This document shows positions 19,543 to 25,959 of a DNA stretch of 64,000 bases, in pieces. The notes below the pieces were generated by a model. That model did no database searches and was not told where the DNA came from. It saw only the letters and a program-made list of their open reading frames with translations. Each line of letters begins with the position of its first letter. The stretch's first letter is position 1. The stretch is from Natronorubrum aibiense (GTDB lineage Archaea; Halobacteriota; Halobacteria; Halobacteriales; Natrialbaceae), in contig NZ_CP045488.1 in NCBI RefSeq assembly GCF_009392895.1, positions 310,001 through 374,000 of the forward strand, written 5' to 3'. Both the position numbers and the translations under genes were made by a program.

Positions 19543-22500
19543 CTATCCCGCAGTCCGGGCTATCGTAACACCGACCGAGCCCGGACTACCGGGAACGGGT
19601 GAGGATGCCGACTGCCCGGCGAATGGATCGTCAAACGGTCCCTCGTCGAACGGATCATCAGATTGGTCTTCATCGAACGGATCCTCCGTCGGTCCGTCAT
19701 CCGGTGGCTCGTCGGTCGGCCCCTCATCGAACGGATCCTCCGTCGGTCCGTCTTCCGTCGGCCCGTCTTCCGTCGGCGGGTCCGGCTCATCGACCGACTC
19801 GATCGTCACCGTCGTCTCGACGAGTTCGGTCTCGCTCGAGACAGTAACCGGGTACTCGCCGGGCTCGAGTGCGGCGGTGTCCGCGGTGAGCGTCAGCGTC
19901 TCCGCCGCGCCGGGCTCGAGCGAGACCGTCGCGGCATCGACGACAGTGTCGCCGACGGCGAGTTCGATCTCCTGGGTACCCGCCTCGCCGCCGACGTTCT
20001 CGACCTCGATGGCGACCTCGAGCAGCGTTCCCTGTTCGACGGAATCGGTCGTCTCCGTGATTGAGACGGCGAACTCGGCCGGTTCGCTCGGCACGATCTC
20101 GCCGGCCGTCGCGGTCGTCGCGGGGTCGACGGCGTCCGCGTCGTAGTCGTATCTGGTCATGTCGACCGCCCAGACGAGCCGCTCGTCGTCGCTTTCAGGC
20201 GTCCACTCGACGGAGAACGTGTTCTGTCCGGGCTCGAGTTCGTCGACTGGCTCGTCCGCGGTCGCCCCCTCAACGAACTCGCTGTCGACGAGCAGGGCCG
20301 CGTCGTTCGGGTTCTCGTAGCCGAAAGTGACCTCGATGCCGTCCTCGGTCGGCGTCGTCTCCTCGACGCTGAGTTCGGGGAGTTCGGGGCGGACGTCCTC
20401 GAGACACGCCTCTGCGTCGGGGTTCGGGTAGTCAATCTCGCCCGGCGTCGCGTCGGGCGAGGCGACACCGGTGATTGCGGCACCAAAGTCGCCCTCGGGA
20501 ACGGTAACGGTCGCACCGTCGTCGGTCTCGGTGACGGTGAACTCGTCGCCGGTCTCGTACGTGATCGTTCCCTCGAACGGCGCGTCGACGTCCTCGCCGA
20601 TCGTGATCGCGTACTCGCCCATCGTGTTGCCGAAGCCGCCCGACTCGTAGAACCCGGTGGCGACGATGACCGTCTCTCCGTCCTCGAACGAGCCCGTCAC
20701 CTCGGCTTGCGAGCAGTCGGTAAACTCGACGTCGAACGCTGTCGGCTCGTCCTCGAGCGTGTACTCGACGGTCTCGTTCTCGAGGACCTGTTGATCGTCT
20801 AGCTCCGCGAGTGACACCACGGCCACCTCGAGCGTCGAATCGGTCTCGAGTGGCGGCTTGAGGTCGAGATCGACGGCCGACGCGGTCTCGTTTCGCTCGA
20901 ACGGCTCGCTCTCTACGAGTTGCTCGCCGTCCTCGTCGGTGACGGTGAGCGCGTAATCGACCGACGCAGTCGCCTCGTCGACGGTGAGCGTTTCGCCGTC
21001 GCCCGTCTGATCGGCCACCTCGAGCGTGGCGAGTTCCGCTCCCTCCTCGTCCGTCTCGTTCGTGTCATCGACTGGCTCCGCTCCCTCCTCGTCCGTCTCG
21101 TTCGTGTCATCGACTGGCTCCGCTCCCTCCTCGTCCGCGAGCGTGTACTCGAGGGATTCGGTCGCGAGTTCGTCACCGTCGGGACCGATAACGGAGACGT
21201 CGACGGTCGTGGAGTCCTCGAGCGGCGGCTCGAGGGGGAGTTCCAGATCAGTGATCGTCTCCTCGGCCTCGAACGTATCACTCTCGACGATCGTGTCGTC
21301 GGCGGTGGCCGTGACAGTGAACTCGACGTCGGCGCTCGCCTCGTCGACGACGAGCGTCTCGCCATCACCCTCCTGATCGCTCACCTCGAGGGTCGCGTCC
21401 GGCTCGTCGTCGTCCGCCGATTCCTCGGGCTCGTCAGTTCCCTCGGATTCCTCGACGCCGTCGACCGCACCACCGGTCACCAGCGCCGTATCGAGGATCG
21501 GACCGCCGCCGGGAGCGACGTACGGCTCGTCCTCCGCGCCGTCCGTCTCCGCGTACTGGAACGTCTCGTCGCCGGTCGTGTCGTGGTGGACCACTGCGAC
21601 GAGCGATTGCTCGCCCTCGAGTGGGTCCTCGAGATCGATCTCGACGTCGCTGTGCGATCCGGGTTCGAGGTACGCAGACGCGCCGACCACAGCAGCCGGA
21701 TCGACGGTGCCGTCGTCGTAGAGCGCCACGAAGCCGCCTTCTGAGAGGTCGACAGTGTCGATGACGACCGCGTCGTCGTCGCGCTCCTGGTCGGTGAACG
21801 AGACCGTCGCTTGGCCCTCGAGGGCGTCGATCTCCTCGACGCGTTGCTCGAGGTCGGCCTCGAGGAACTGGCTGAGGTCGGCAGTCGCCGCGTCGTCGTC
21901 GACCCCTTCCTCGACCGCGTACGCCGTGGCGTCGGCTGCGGCGTCCGACGTGAGTACCTGCAACTGCGTGATGCTGATCTGCTGGTACTGTACCACTCGG
22001 GCCGTCTCCTGACCGGCACTGCTGGCTGCGAGCTGGAGCTGTTCGACGGTCGCTTCCTGGGATTGTTCCAGCACGCCGCTTGCGCTGCCCGCGGCAAGCA
22101 CCTGAACTTGCGTCACGTCGACGACCTGCCGCTGGATCACGGCACCCTGACCCGCACCGAACGCAGCGGCCTGAATCTGTTCGATTTCGACGGTCTGCGA
22201 CTGGATCGCCGTCCCAACCGCGCCCTGTGCGGCACCGACAGCGGCGGACTGGATCTGTGTGATCGAAATTTCCTGGTACTGGACGAGCACCCCGCCGGCA
22301 GCCCCGTCAGCAGCGGCCTGAATCTGCTCGACCGATGCCTCCTGACTCTGGCTGATTGCTCCCTTGGCCGCGCCGAAGGATGCCTCCTGAATCTGCGTGA
22401 TCGAGATCCGTTGGACCTGTTCGATACTGATCGACTGGACCTGTATCAACGCCCCTTTGCTCGCTCCGCGTGCGGCGGCCTGTGTCTGCTCGACCGAGAC

Positions 22501-23478
22501 TTCCTGATGCTGGACCAGCGCTCCCTTCGCAGCCCCGGTCGCGGCCTTCTGGATCTGTTTGACCGTCGCCCGCTGGTACTGTCCGACCTCGATACGCTGT
22601 TCTTGCTCGAGGACGGTCTCGCTGCTCCCCTCGAGCGCGCCCGCGGATGCACCCGCGGCCGCGTTTTGGACATGATCCAGAGTGATCTGCTGGCGCTGTT
22701 CAGCCGTAATCTTCTGGTACTGCTCGAGCACGCCGTAGGATGCGCCCTGTGCGGCTTCCTGGATCTTCGGCGCGTGGGTGATGTCTTTATCCCCGGCCTC
22801 GCTCGCCGCTCCGGCGGCCCCGCCGCGGGCTGCGACCTGAATCTGCTCGACGGTCACGCGCTGTTCCTGAGCAATCGCGCCGTGTGCGGCCCCCCACGTC
22901 GCACTCTGCATCTGGCTCGCCGAGACCGTCTGGGATTGAGCGAGCGCGCCGTCGGTCGCCCCGCTGACGGCGTACTGAACCTGTTCGGCTTCGACCTGCT
23001 GGGCTTGCATCAGCGAGCCGTGGACAGCCCCCGTCGTCGCCTCCTGAACCTGCCCGACGTCGGCTTGCTGATGCTGGATGACCGACTCACGTGCGCCCTC
23101 GAGCGCCGCCGCTCGTTGCTCTTGCGTTACTTCGACACCCTGCGATTGGGCCAGTTCGATGCCCTCATCGACGCCGGCCTCGACAGCGTCTTCTTGTTGG
23201 ATCGACAGCGACCCCTGGGTGCCGCTGGTGGCGTCTGTCTCCACCGTTGACTCCATCGACACCAGTTCGAGGTCGCTGGCAACGCTGTCGGAACTGGAGC
23301 CGAGTTCGGTCTGTGAGCCGTCCGCCGACTCTGGCGATTCGCCGGCCGTGTCGTGCGTACGCTCGTCATTGCCATCATCGGTCGGAACGAACCCACCACC
23401 GAGCATGGGCAGTGCCATCGCACTCGTCATCAACAGCGCAACGACGAGCACCACGGCGATCGCACCCCGACTGCTCAT
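19543..23478 (-). CDS. Giant secreted repeat protein (23-residue Gln/Ala repeats, DUF7282-like and CARDB-like domains)
   Basis: This 1311-residue protein has a hydrophobic signal segment (residues about 5-24). Residues about 113-515 form roughly sixteen copies of a 23-residue repeat of the form (I/V)Q-x-A-A-x-G-A, x-x-G-A-L-x-Q, then x-Q-x-(V/I)-(S/T)-x-x-Q. Some copies carry an extra eight-residue VQRISITQ-like insertion. A beta domain at about 555-670 (GGFVALYDDGTVDPAAVVGA) resembles haloarchaeal DUF7282. Several beta-sandwich modules follow, including a CARDB-like one near 1130-1225. The tail is Asp/Pro-rich (PTEDPFDEGPTDEP). No C-terminal membrane anchor or PGF-CTERM motif is visible, so it is probably released or held by other surface parts. 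Function unknown; a structural or adhesive surface role is inference. Confidence 0.85.
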   Translation of the reverse strand: MSSRGAIAVVLVVALLMTSAMALPMLGGGFVPTDDGNDERTHDTAGESPESADGSQTELGSSSDSVASDLELVSMESTVETDATSGTQGSLSIQQEDAVEAGVDEGIELAQSQGVEVTQEQRAAALEGARESVIQHQQADVGQVQEATTGAVHGSLMQAQQVEAEQVQYAVSGATDGALAQSQTVSASQMQSATWGAAHGAIAQEQRVTVEQIQVAARGGAAGAASEAGDKDITHAPKIQEAAQGASYGVLEQYQKITAEQRQQITLDHVQNAAAGASAGALEGSSETVLEQEQRIEVGQYQRATVKQIQKAATGAAKGALVQHQEVSVEQTQAAARGASKGALIQVQSISIEQVQRISITQIQEASFGAAKGAISQSQEASVEQIQAAADGAAGGVLVQYQEISITQIQSAAVGAAQGAVGTAIQSQTVEIEQIQAAAFGAGQGAVIQRQVVDVTQVQVLAAGSASGVLEQSQEATVEQLQLAASSAGQETARVVQYQQISITQLQVLTSDAAADATAYAVEEGVDDDAATADLSQFLEADLEQRVEEIDALEGQATVSFTDQERDDDAVVIDTVDLSEGGFVALYDDGTVDPAAVVGASAYLEPGSHSDVEIDLEDPLEGEQSLVAVVHHDTTGDETFQYAETDGAEDEPYVAPGGGPILDTALVTGGAVDGVEESEGTDEPEESADDDEPDATLEVSDQEGDGETLVVDEASADVEFTVTATADDTIVESDTFEAEETITDLELPLEPPLEDSTTVDVSVIGPDGDELATESLEYTLADEEGAEPVDDTNETDEEGAEPVDDTNETDEEGAELATLEVADQTGDGETLTVDEATASVDYALTVTDEDGEQLVESEPFERNETASAVDLDLKPPLETDSTLEVAVVSLAELDDQQVLENETVEYTLEDEPTAFDVEFTDCSQAEVTGSFEDGETVIVATGFYESGGFGNTMGEYAITIGEDVDAPFEGTITYETGDEFTVTETDDGATVTVPEGDFGAAITGVASPDATPGEIDYPNPDAEACLEDVRPELPELSVEETTPTEDGIEVTFGYENPNDAALLVDSEFVEGATADEPVDELEPGQNTFSVEWTPESDDERLVWAVDMTRYDYDADAVDPATTATAGEIVPSEPAEFAVSITETTDSVEQGTLLEVAIEVENVGGEAGTQEIELAVGDTVVDAATVSLEPGAAETLTLTADTAALEPGEYPVTVSSETELVETTVTIESVDEPDPPTEDGPTEDGPTEDPFDEGPTDEPPDDGPTEDPFDEDQSDDPFDEGPFDDPFAGQSASSPVPGSPGSVGVTIARTAG
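19618..19794 (-). repeat. Low-complexity region encoding Asp/Pro repeats
   Basis: Short imperfect repeats of the coding unit TEDGP/TEDPFDE recur at the C-terminal end of the giant secreted protein (about residues 1229-1287). They are visible as repeated ggatcctccgtcggtccgtc-type segments on the plus strand. Confidence 0.75.
21035..21137 (-). repeat. 42-base direct tandem repeat inside the giant gene
   Basis: A 42-base unit encoding DEEGAEPVDDTNET occurs twice without change, from about 21035 to 21118, followed by a third partial copy of about 19 bases. The identity of the copies points to recent duplication by slippage. It lies in the linker between two similar beta modules (near residues 780-820). 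Confidence 0.85.
21934..23142 (-). repeat. Array of 23-residue protein repeats
   Basis: About sixteen copies of the 23-codon unit described for the giant protein run through this interval. The copies are diverged at the DNA level, so this is an old, selected protein repeat and not a DNA tandem repeat. Gln positions flanking short beta-like stretches and the AAxGAAxGA core are the best conserved. Confidence 0.8.
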
Positions 23479-23922
23479 GACTCGAGTCCCCCACGGGCGG
23501 TCGTGGTCGGCTCCCAGCCGATCGCTACCCCACCGAGGGCCGACTGCTGTCTCCGGGACGCCCCCTGATAGTGTCGACTGTTAATAGTTCGCATGAATAA
23601 CATCGGTTTCCCACCACCGGTCTGACCGAGTCAATAAGCCCCGCTGGTCGTTTCAGTTAGGCGAGAGACACAATACGAGGTTATCGTCACCGGACGCGAC
23701 AGTTCGAGCGAGTCGATCGCCGACCGGTGTCGAGACCATCGCCGCCGAGCCCCCGTTGGGTCGGCTAACTCGAGTGGCCAGTAGGATGAGAGGTAGCGGC
23801 CTGTTTCGGGCCGTACACAAGCGCCCCGAGTTACGTCGAACCTTTCGACGGTCGACGACGAGTGGCTGTCGCGCGTCTCGGAAACCGAAGTGTTGAACTA
23901 GGTTTACGAGAGTGACGGTGGT
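23479..23922. other. Intergenic region between the giant gene and bioY
   Basis: These 444 bases separate two divergent genes. A TATA-like ctattaac (complement of about 23579-23586) could start the giant-gene transcript with a leader of about 75 bases. The bioY end holds the BirA-like operator described separately. I see no credible coding sequence in between. Confidence 0.5.
23878..23909 (+). promoter_or_regulatory. BirA-like biotin operator upstream of bioY
   Basis: TCGGAAACC (23878-23886), exactly 14 bases, then GGTTTACGA (23901-23909) matches the known BirA operator layout TTGTAAACC-N14/15-GGTTTACAA with 7 of 9 and 8 of 9 identities. It ends 13 bases before the bioY ATG and overlaps the expected core promoter. 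Repression of the biotin transporter by a biotin-loaded BirA with a DNA-binding domain is the natural reading. Confidence 0.65.
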
Positions 23923-24513
23923 ATGGCAACGGAACACAACTCGGTCGCGCTCGTCGACGGCGACGTCGTTCGTCAGTTCGCTCGAGCGGCACTGCTCGCA
24001 GCGCTGCTCGGTGCGGCAGCGCCCGTCTCGATCCCGATCCCGCTATCGGCGGCACCACCGATCACCTTACAGGTGCTGTTCGTCTTCCTCGCCGGTCTCG
24101 TCCTGGGGCCGGTCTGGGGACCCATCTCGCTGCTCCTCTATCTCGCTGCGGGAGCCATCGGGCTGCCCGTCTTCTCGGGGATGAGTGCGGGACTCGGCGT
24201 ACTGGTCGGCAACACGGCCGGCTACCTCTGGTCGTACCCGCTCGCCGCCGGCCTGATCGGACTCGTGATCCATCGGGACACCGAGCTTCGAGATCCTGCT
24301 GCCGTTTCGCTTCCGGTCGTCATCGTCGCGCTCGTCGCCGGGACGATCCTCATCTACGGCATGGGCACCGGCTACATGGCCTGGCTCCTCGAGATCGGGG
24401 CGTGGGAGGCGATCACTCTCGGCGCGCTGCCGTTTATCCCCGGCGAACTGCTCAAGATCGCCGCGGCGATCGCGATCGTCAAAAGCGGCCGCATCGGGCC
24501 GGTTCGATCGTGA
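23923..24513 (+). CDS. bioY: Biotin ECF transporter substrate-binding subunit BioY
   Basis: This 196-residue protein has about six membrane segments and the BioY pattern: PITLQVLFVFLAGLVLGPVW near residue 46, LLLYLAAGAIGLPVFSGMSAG, and GTGYMAWLLEIGAWEAITLGA. It is the biotin-binding S component of an energy-coupling factor transporter. BioM and BioN follow on the same strand. A BirA-like operator overlaps its promoter region. Confidence 0.95.
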   Translation: MATEHNSVALVDGDVVRQFARAALLAALLGAAAPVSIPIPLSAAPPITLQVLFVFLAGLVLGPVWGPISLLLYLAAGAIGLPVFSGMSAGLGVLVGNTAGYLWSYPLAAGLIGLVIHRDTELRDPAAVSLPVVIVALVAGTILIYGMGTGYMAWLLEIGAWEAITLGALPFIPGELLKIAAAIAIVKSGRIGPVRS

Positions 24514-24540: not shown

Positions 24541-25245
24541 ATGATTGAGTTTCGGTCCGTCACCTACGCGTTCGACGACGTTCCCGTTCTCGAGGACGTC
24601 TCACTGTCGATCGATGACGGCGAGTTCGTCCTCTTCGCGGGGGCCAACGGCAGCGGGAAGACGACGCTGTTGCGCCACTGCAACGGCCTGCTCGAGCCCG
24701 ATTCTGGCGACGTGCTCGTCAATGGAACCCCTGTTGCGGACGACCTGATCGCCGCCCGCTCGAGCGTCGGGATGGTCTTTCAACACCCTCGCGACCAGTT
24801 CGTCGCCGCGACGATCGGTGCCGACGTCGCCTTCGGGCCCGAAAACCTCGGCCTCTCGCGCGAGGCGATCGATCGGCGAGTCGAAACCGCCCTCGACGCC
24901 GTCAACATGGCCGGTCGCGGCGACGAGCGCATCGACGCGCTCTCGGGGGGCGAACAGTCCCGCGTGGCCATCGCGGGCGCACTCGCGATGAACCCGGACC
25001 ATCTCGTCCTCGACGAACCCTTTACCGGACTCGACGACCCCGCTCGGCGGTCCGTTCTCGAGCGCATCGAGTCGCTCTCCATCGACGGCACCGGGGTTCT
25101 ATTGACGACCCACGACCTCCGAGACGTCGTCGGCCTCGCCGACCGTATCGTCGCCATGAAAGACGGCCGCGTCGTGGTCGACGACTCGCCCGAACGCGCA
25201 CTCGAGGCACTGGCGGGACTCGACGTTCGCGTCCCCGACACCTAA
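24541..25245 (+). CDS. bioM: Biotin ECF transporter ATPase BioM
   Basis: This 234-residue ABC ATPase energises biotin uptake. Walker A is GANGSGKTT (residues 34-42), the Q-loop is MVFQHPRDQF, the signature is LSGGEQSRVAIA (134-145), Walker B is LVLDEPFTGLDD (155-166), and the H-loop is LTTHDLRDVV. The Q-loop HPRDQF form is typical of ECF-type ATPases. It starts 27 bases after bioY and ends nine bases before bioN. Confidence 0.94.
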   Translation: MIEFRSVTYAFDDVPVLEDVSLSIDDGEFVLFAGANGSGKTTLLRHCNGLLEPDSGDVLVNGTPVADDLIAARSSVGMVFQHPRDQFVAATIGADVAFGPENLGLSREAIDRRVETALDAVNMAGRGDERIDALSGGEQSRVAIAGALAMNPDHLVLDEPFTGLDDPARRSVLERIESLSIDGTGVLLTTHDLRDVVGLADRIVAMKDGRVVVDDSPERALEALAGLDVRVPDT

Positions 25246-25254
25246 CCACCGACG

Positions 25255-25959
25255 ATGCTTACCTACGCCCCTGACGACACGCTCGCCCACCGGCTCGACC
25301 CCCGCTCGAAGCTGGCGCTCCAGATCGGCTTCGCGACGACGGCGCTGGCCCACACCAGTCCACGGGCGCTACTCGCCCTCTCCGTCGTAGCCGGGCTGAT
25401 CCTCGTTTTCGCCCGACTGTCGGTGCTCGAGGCACTCTACGCCTACCGCTTTGCGCTCGTCATCCTCGCGGTCGCGCCACTGGTTTCAGGATTGACCCTC
25501 GGTGCGCCGTGGTTCGATTCCACGGACGCGGGAACCTCCGCACGAGCGAGCTACCGAGTCCTGCTCATTTTGCTCGTCAGCGCAGCATATATCCGCTCGA
25601 CGCCGGTGCGAGCGTCTCGAGCCGCGATCCAGCGGACGATCCCCGGCAAACCCGGACAGGTGCTCGGTATCGGCGTCGCGCTCGTCTTCCGGTTCCTGCC
25701 GGTCTTGCAGGCGGATCTCCGAACGATCCGCGACGCGATGGCGGCCCGGCTGGGCGACGAGCGCGGCGTTATCGACCGCGCCAGCACGCTCTCGTTGCTC
25801 GCGCTCTCGAGGGCGTTCGACCGAGCGGATCGACTCGCACTCGCCTTACAGGCGCGCTGTTTCGCTTGGAACCCCACACTGCCCGCGCTGACGTTTTCAC
25901 GGGTCGACTACCCCGCGCTCGGACTGGCCGTCGTCCTCGCCGTGTCCGCGTTCTACTAA
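25255..25959 (+). CDS. bioN: Biotin ECF transporter transmembrane subunit BioN
   Basis: This 234-residue EcfT-type protein begins MLTYAPDDTLAHRLDPRSKL, the usual EcfT N-terminus, and has about five membrane segments. The coupling-helix region is VFRFLPVLQADLRTIRDAM followed by FDRADRLALALQARCF, where a classic EcfT has Ala-Arg-Gly; here the second motif reads ARC. It completes the BioMNY complex. Confidence 0.93.
   Translation: MLTYAPDDTLAHRLDPRSKLALQIGFATTALAHTSPRALLALSVVAGLILVFARLSVLEALYAYRFALVILAVAPLVSGLTLGAPWFDSTDAGTSARASYRVLLILLVSAAYIRSTPVRASRAAIQRTIPGKPGQVLGIGVALVFRFLPVLQADLRTIRDAMAARLGDERGVIDRASTLSLLALSRAFDRADRLALALQARCFAWNPTLPALTFSRVDYPALGLAVVLAVSAFY

Follow-up and report, generated by a model that had tools for sequence, protein, structure and literature searches.

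The stretch of DNA analysed here is a 64,000-nucleotide window (G000:C1:310001-374000) of the 4.35-Mb genome of Natronorubrum aibiense, and positions refer to this window unless a contig or locus is named. On its plus strand lies a set of three genes for biotin uptake. The first, bioY (23923..24513, + strand), encodes the 196-aa S (substrate-binding) component of an ECF biotin transporter and matches PF02632 at 5.1e-39, with 133.9 bits against a cut-off of 25. The position of its ATG is kept in relatives, and among named bioY genes the closest by identity are those of Natronorubrum sulfidifaciens (93 per cent) and N. thiooxidans (89 per cent). It is followed by a bioM-like gene for an ECF transporter ATPase (24541..25245, + strand; PF00005 at 1.5e-29, over cut-off, and TIGR04520 at 1.9e-66, below cut-off) and by a bioN-like gene for an ECF T component (25255..25959, + strand; PF02361 CbiQ at 3.2e-16, over cut-off, and TIGR02454, below cut-off). 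The three are presumed to be co-transcribed as one operon. Three components identical in kind make up bioYMN of Corynebacterium glutamicum, an operon termed biotin-inducible in the title of its report (PMC3398298), and bioYMN of the haloarchaeon Natrialba magadii (Nmag_0886-0888), where the locus has been annotated in a paper whose passages on it are silent about regulation (PMC3403918). On the minus strand, an ORF of 1311 aa (19543-23478) has a signal-like start and, by eye, many degenerate repeats of alternating Gln/Val and Gly-Ala patterns; its product is probably a secreted or surface protein.

In front of bioY is a 32-base palindrome at 23878-23909, TCGGAAACC-GAAGTGTTGAACTA-GGTTTACGA, that is, TCGGAAACC-N14-GGTTTACGA. 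The left half-site TCGGAAACC (23878..23886, + strand) and the right half-site GGTTTACGA (23901..23909, + strand; seen in the sequence and in the 113-site alignment below) pair at 8/9 positions, and the 14-base spacer GAAGTGTTGAACTA between them (23887..23900, + strand; same alignment) contains a TATA-like element at about 23891-23898 that is the putative core promoter. A preliminary description of this DNA had recognised here the layout of a BirA operator, with 15 of 18 half-site positions matched and the palindrome ending 13 bases before bioY. Both statements hold: the arms agree with the published consensus TTGTAAACC-[N14/15]-GGTTTACAA (PMC545781) at 7/9 and 8/9 positions, and the gap to the ATG at 23923 is 13 bases. 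At three or fewer mismatches, shuffled windows contained a mean of 0.04 matches and both strands of the real window one place. A search of the whole genome with the exact bioY half-sites at the same threshold found three places, namely bioY, bioB and one place with three mismatches (L005), against none for a reversed-pattern control; with the idealised half-sites TCGTAAACC/GGTTTACGA, the whole genome yielded bioY and bioB only, and the reversed control one place.

The second operator recovered by the half-site search, TCGTTAACC-N14-GGTTTACGA, covers the start of bioB, the first gene in the order bioB-bioU-bioF-bioD. Two of these genes have products over the cut-off of their models (bioB, TIGR00433, 339.6 bits; bioD, TIGR00347), and that of bioF scores 404 bits with TIGR00858, below the cut-off of 426. 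The gene between bioB and bioF (L164:9360-10469, on G000:C1) encodes a protein that matches NF047886 at 4.3e-101 with 338 against 600 bits and, since the cut-off of that model is not reached, is called BioU-like. It aligns to Slr0355 and keeps an LKR lysine, which we take to be the reactive lysine; a polar low-complexity stretch at residues ~55-100 has no alignment to Slr0355. The BioU-like enzyme may carry out the step for which haloarchaea lack BioA, and a BioU route would fit a survey table that, with its column order inferred, apparently gives zero bioA across 31 Halobacteria (PMC6138646). The predicted regulon thus consists of uptake (bioYMN) and synthesis (bioB-bioU-bioF-bioD), two operons having been found. 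Many genomes of the family have more than two places at three or fewer mismatches among the matches listed, and several recurring ones look coding by eye.

The operator at bioY is real and conserved. Of 121 genomes sampled from the family, 116 contain PF02632 and the remaining five are 53-85 per cent complete. With two copies in G007 there were 117 family bioY loci, and 140 loci together with 23 from non-family genomes; for ten genomes of the genus the loci came from pattern searches, and coordinates place each site beside an independently found bioY. At four or fewer mismatches to TCGTAAACC/GGTTTACGA, a threshold reached by 1.1 per cent of Markov-randomised upstreams, the operator stands at 116/117 family promoters and at 21/23 non-family loci. 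Conservation of the half-sites upstream of bioY in relatives, on which the preliminary description had staked its reading, is therefore evident in the family. The two remaining non-family loci have poorer sites (5 mismatches at 14 bases from an ATG, 6 mismatches at 16), and operators of distant families are weaker than those of the own family. Spacing is also nearly fixed, with 133 of 137 sites having N14 and four N13, and 125/137 ending 12-13 bp before an ATG. Both bioY copies of G007 have an operator (G007:C1:227553-227584 and G007:C1:1344601-1344632). In G103 an identical 32-base operator-like sequence with two mismatches occurs at G103:C1:191627-191658 and at G103:C2:166228-166259, which may mark a duplication or a mobile element.

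Base by base, an alignment of 113 family and genus sites, all N14, shows conservation climbing steeply at the operator out of unconserved upstream DNA. Upstream columns -59 to -1 stay at or below 0.31 bits, with 0.52 at the base adjoining the operator; within the operator, 12 columns out of 32 lie above 1.8 bits. The second G, the first T, the A and the C of the right half-site are invariant, the spacer is strongly conserved in most columns and free in columns 15, 22 and 23, and the bases directly downstream of the operator are moderately conserved. A second locus set, which shares many species with the main census so that the counts are not independent, was scored with T also allowed at position 2 and with spacers of 8-21; a site at four or fewer mismatches was present at 56/58 haloarchaeal loci (L098 had none and L100 had five mismatches) and at 11 of 22 other loci from methanogens, bacteria and others, some perhaps by chance.

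When 116 bioY loci are aligned on the ATG, pooling spacers of 13 or 14 bases and gaps of 12 or 13, T is found at -29 in 111/116 and A/T at -26 in 110/116, both inside the spacer, and the half-sites flank a TATA-like element at about -32 to -25 relative to the ATG. The conserved TATA-like spacer of relatives supports the earlier proposal that the operator lies over the core promoter. At bioB (30 loci) the consensus TTATA falls at -29 to -25, and the operator is downstream of it, running from ~-21 into the gene itself. Both promoters are probably leaderless, as the distance of 26-31 bases from TATA box to start codon suggests; leaderless transcripts are common in haloarchaea.

With a TATA-like element in the spacer and a near-fixed distance from site to ATG, it might be supposed that the conservation reflects core promoter (BRE/TATA) and start-region sequence only, without a repressor site. 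This is extremely unlikely. The palindrome at bioB sits downstream of the TATA box, and thus the palindrome is not the promoter. The exceptional family locus, in G043 (L243), has lost the right half-site, yet its left half and its TATA-like spacer, hence the core promoter, are still there; it is a natural candidate for derepression of bioY. In addition, the real pattern is found in 117/121 family genomes, whereas the same pattern read backwards is found in 15/121.

A haloarchaeal BirA with an N-terminal helix-turn-helix (HTH) had been predicted to lie elsewhere in the genome, and lack of a DNA-binding BirA had been named as fatal to the operator reading. A BirA with an N-terminal HTH is encoded at G000:C1:212025-212960. 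Its 312 residues carry HTH_11 (PF08279, residues 5-54, 7.7e-13), the BPL_LplA_LipB ligase core (PF03099, residues 85-208, 3e-21) and BPL_C (PF02237, residues 263-308, 8.4e-13), all over cut-off. Solved BirA proteins align with it over almost the full length, from within the HTH onward, among them 1bia (2.1e-25, query 8-292) and 6apw (3.9e-31, query 15-299), which are presumably those of E. coli and S. aureus, respectively. Domain order would place the protein among the group II biotin protein ligases (BirA), and its score of 173.6 with the ligase model TIGR00121 exceeds the cut-off of 83.1. It misses the curated repressor cut-off of TIGR00122 (birA_repr_reg), with 51.7 against 70, and falls far below those of the PRK11886 models (NCBIfam BirA repressor), where a curated cut-off serves as a yardstick and not as the definition of a group II biotin protein ligase. 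In our judgement the NCBIfam repressor models are tuned to bacterial sequences; as BirA scores below them, the case for repressor function draws on domain order and co-occurrence. PF03099 also matches, at 28.8 bits, a second frame of 357 aa (L002).

Across the class, a ligase was found in 74/79 genomes, and in 74/74 the match starts at query residue 1-8 and so takes in the HTH. This bears on the idea that the palindrome belongs to some other HTH regulator, one that plays the part of BioR or BioQ in haloarchaea and happens to bind a similar sequence. HTH regulators are abundant in haloarchaea, and the haloarchaeal BirA lies under the NCBIfam repressor cut-offs; nevertheless, this idea is very unlikely given a ligase that itself brings the HTH region in every ligase-bearing genome, half-sites and spacing equal or nearly equal to the bacterial BirA consensus, and similar sites, TTGTTAACC-N13-GGTTAACAA, at some methanogen-family bioY genes (L111, L116 and L125). 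We know of no BioR- or BioQ-like analogue with the present half-site. In six genomes of one genus (G123, G130, G136, G140, G147 and G171) there is a second ligase match that begins at query residue 77 or 80 and is HTH-less.

The distribution of ligase and site agrees with BirA as the regulator. In three of the five ligase-negative genomes the ligase query matches nothing, and in the other two it aligns only briefly, with the HTH of other proteins. These five haloarchaea of the 79 (G121, G122, G125, G158 and G173), with no detectable biotin protein ligase and no bioY, may live without biotin. The site was sought in 28/79 class genomes, comprising all five without ligase and 23 of 55 ligase-bearing non-family genomes chosen across genera, all 23 of which have bioY. 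It was present in 0/5 BirA-less against 22/23 BirA-bearing genomes (Fisher 6e-5, uncorrected for the relatedness of the genomes), counting sites anywhere in the genome, where some genomes also match the reversed control by chance. The single miss, G166, arises from N14 stringency, as that genome has an N13 site with four mismatches (L167). Because the five BirA-less genomes also lack bioY, absence of the site could follow from loss of the target gene, and the pattern agrees with the BirA model without proving it.

The preliminary description had suggested a search for further operator copies at biotin-synthesis and birA promoters; the synthesis operon has one, and the birA loci examined show none. 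In the 200 bases upstream of birA, at four or fewer mismatches and with spacers of 13-16, an operator was found at 0/30 loci (of 74 found), and in the 400 bases upstream of birA in N. aibiense itself the best candidate has five mismatches. An autoregulatory site at birA was rejected on these 30 loci.

At bioB the operator and the gene share sequence. An operator with three or fewer mismatches is present at 37/37 loci examined, and in all 37 genes, from six haloarchaeal families, the right half-site spans codons 1-4, start codon included. Within the family, where 48/61 genomes have a match over cut-off and the 30 best-scoring were taken, the half-site in 30/30 overlaps a GTG or ATG that is in frame and precedes GTT TAC GA; outside it, the overlap is identical in all seven bioB genes found in 23 genomes. 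The encoded N-terminus is Met-Val-Tyr-Glu. One diverged non-family genome, G138, reads ATG GTT AAC GA and so has Met-Val-Asn-Glu, by which the protein is altered while the half-site is still a legal operator variant. Val2 is the rare codon GTT in 37/37 genes, and in the family sample GTT occupies 30/30 Val2 positions against 60/892 other Val codons of the same 30 genes (binomial 7e-36, a value that ignores relatedness). That Val2 is always GTT, though this codon is rare elsewhere, points to selection on the DNA rather than on the protein. GTG and ATG are swapped at the identical position in L267, L271, L276 and L295, and this exchange supports the overlapped codon as the true start of bioB; in N. 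aibiense another in-frame ATG occurs 24 bases upstream. It is likely that the right half-site at bioB is dual-use DNA, serving as operator and as codons 1-4 with the start among them, that BirA dictated both the N-terminus and the rare Val codon, and that bound BirA occupies the beginning of a leaderless transcript. This reading also distinguishes two geometries, one straddling the TATA element at uptake and one covering the start site at synthesis, with which a staged shut-off is possible.

Taken with the ligase, the palindrome at bioY is very probably an operator for BirA, the haloarchaeal biotin protein ligase/repressor of group II, which probably shuts uptake and synthesis together. Binding, biotinyl-5'-AMP as ligand, repression and dependence on biotin are predicted from homology. 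Once all biotin-accepting proteins had been biotinylated, BirA would retain its product biotinyl-5'-AMP, and the complex would dimerise and bind both half-sites. At bioYMN, whose promoter is probably leaderless and has its TATA-like element between the half-sites, bound BirA would thereby exclude TBP/TFB or RNA polymerase. At bioB-bioU-bioF-bioD it would cover the start codon and the site where transcription is predicted to begin, and with this second operator a single sensor could switch off uptake and synthesis together, much as in bacteria. Some archaeal regulators activate from sites beside BRE/TATA, and BirA might by analogy activate bioYMN instead; this is highly unlikely with half-sites on either side of the TATA-like element at bioY and an operator over the predicted start site and start codon at bioB, a placement from which a block of initiation is expected.

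The arrangement shares much with the bacterial BirA regulon of E. coli, B. subtilis and delta-proteobacteria, as described in passages of earlier work: half-sites of the TTGTAAACC/GGTTTACAA type with N14/15 spacing, an HTH-bearing ligase, biotin genes as the location of a genome's one or two sites, and a birA that is often unregulated (PMC545781, PMC4016012). It differs in having TCG.../...CGA in its half-sites against TTG.../...CAA in the bacterial consensus, in its archaeal TATA promoters, which are probably leaderless, and in the overlap of the bioB operator with the start codon. Conservation of the BirA signal in Eubacteria and Archaea was claimed in the title of an earlier study (Rodionov, Mironov, and Gelfand 2002), and with that prediction for Archaea on record the haloarchaeal case is a well-supported addition to a known kind of regulon and not a new system. 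A 2021 survey names a transcription factor of Thermococcus barophilus that combines an HTH with biotin ligase activity, and its passages on HTH-bearing archaeal ligases name neither a haloarchaeal case nor an operator (PMC8253408). Among the papers listed by literature searches none deals with a haloarchaeal BirA operator, which is at most a tentative indication for the literature as a whole.

The contributions of the present analysis are the family-wide census and the start-codon overlap at bioB, of which the latter is the freshest detail. The haloarchaeal operators offer a testable case of a bacterial-type metabolite-sensing repressor acting at archaeal TATA/TFB promoters, and they place a BioU-like enzyme inside a predicted BirA-controlled operon. 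With a predicted regulon as small as the two operons found, the whole logic of biotin uptake and synthesis would be testable in a tractable haloarchaeon.
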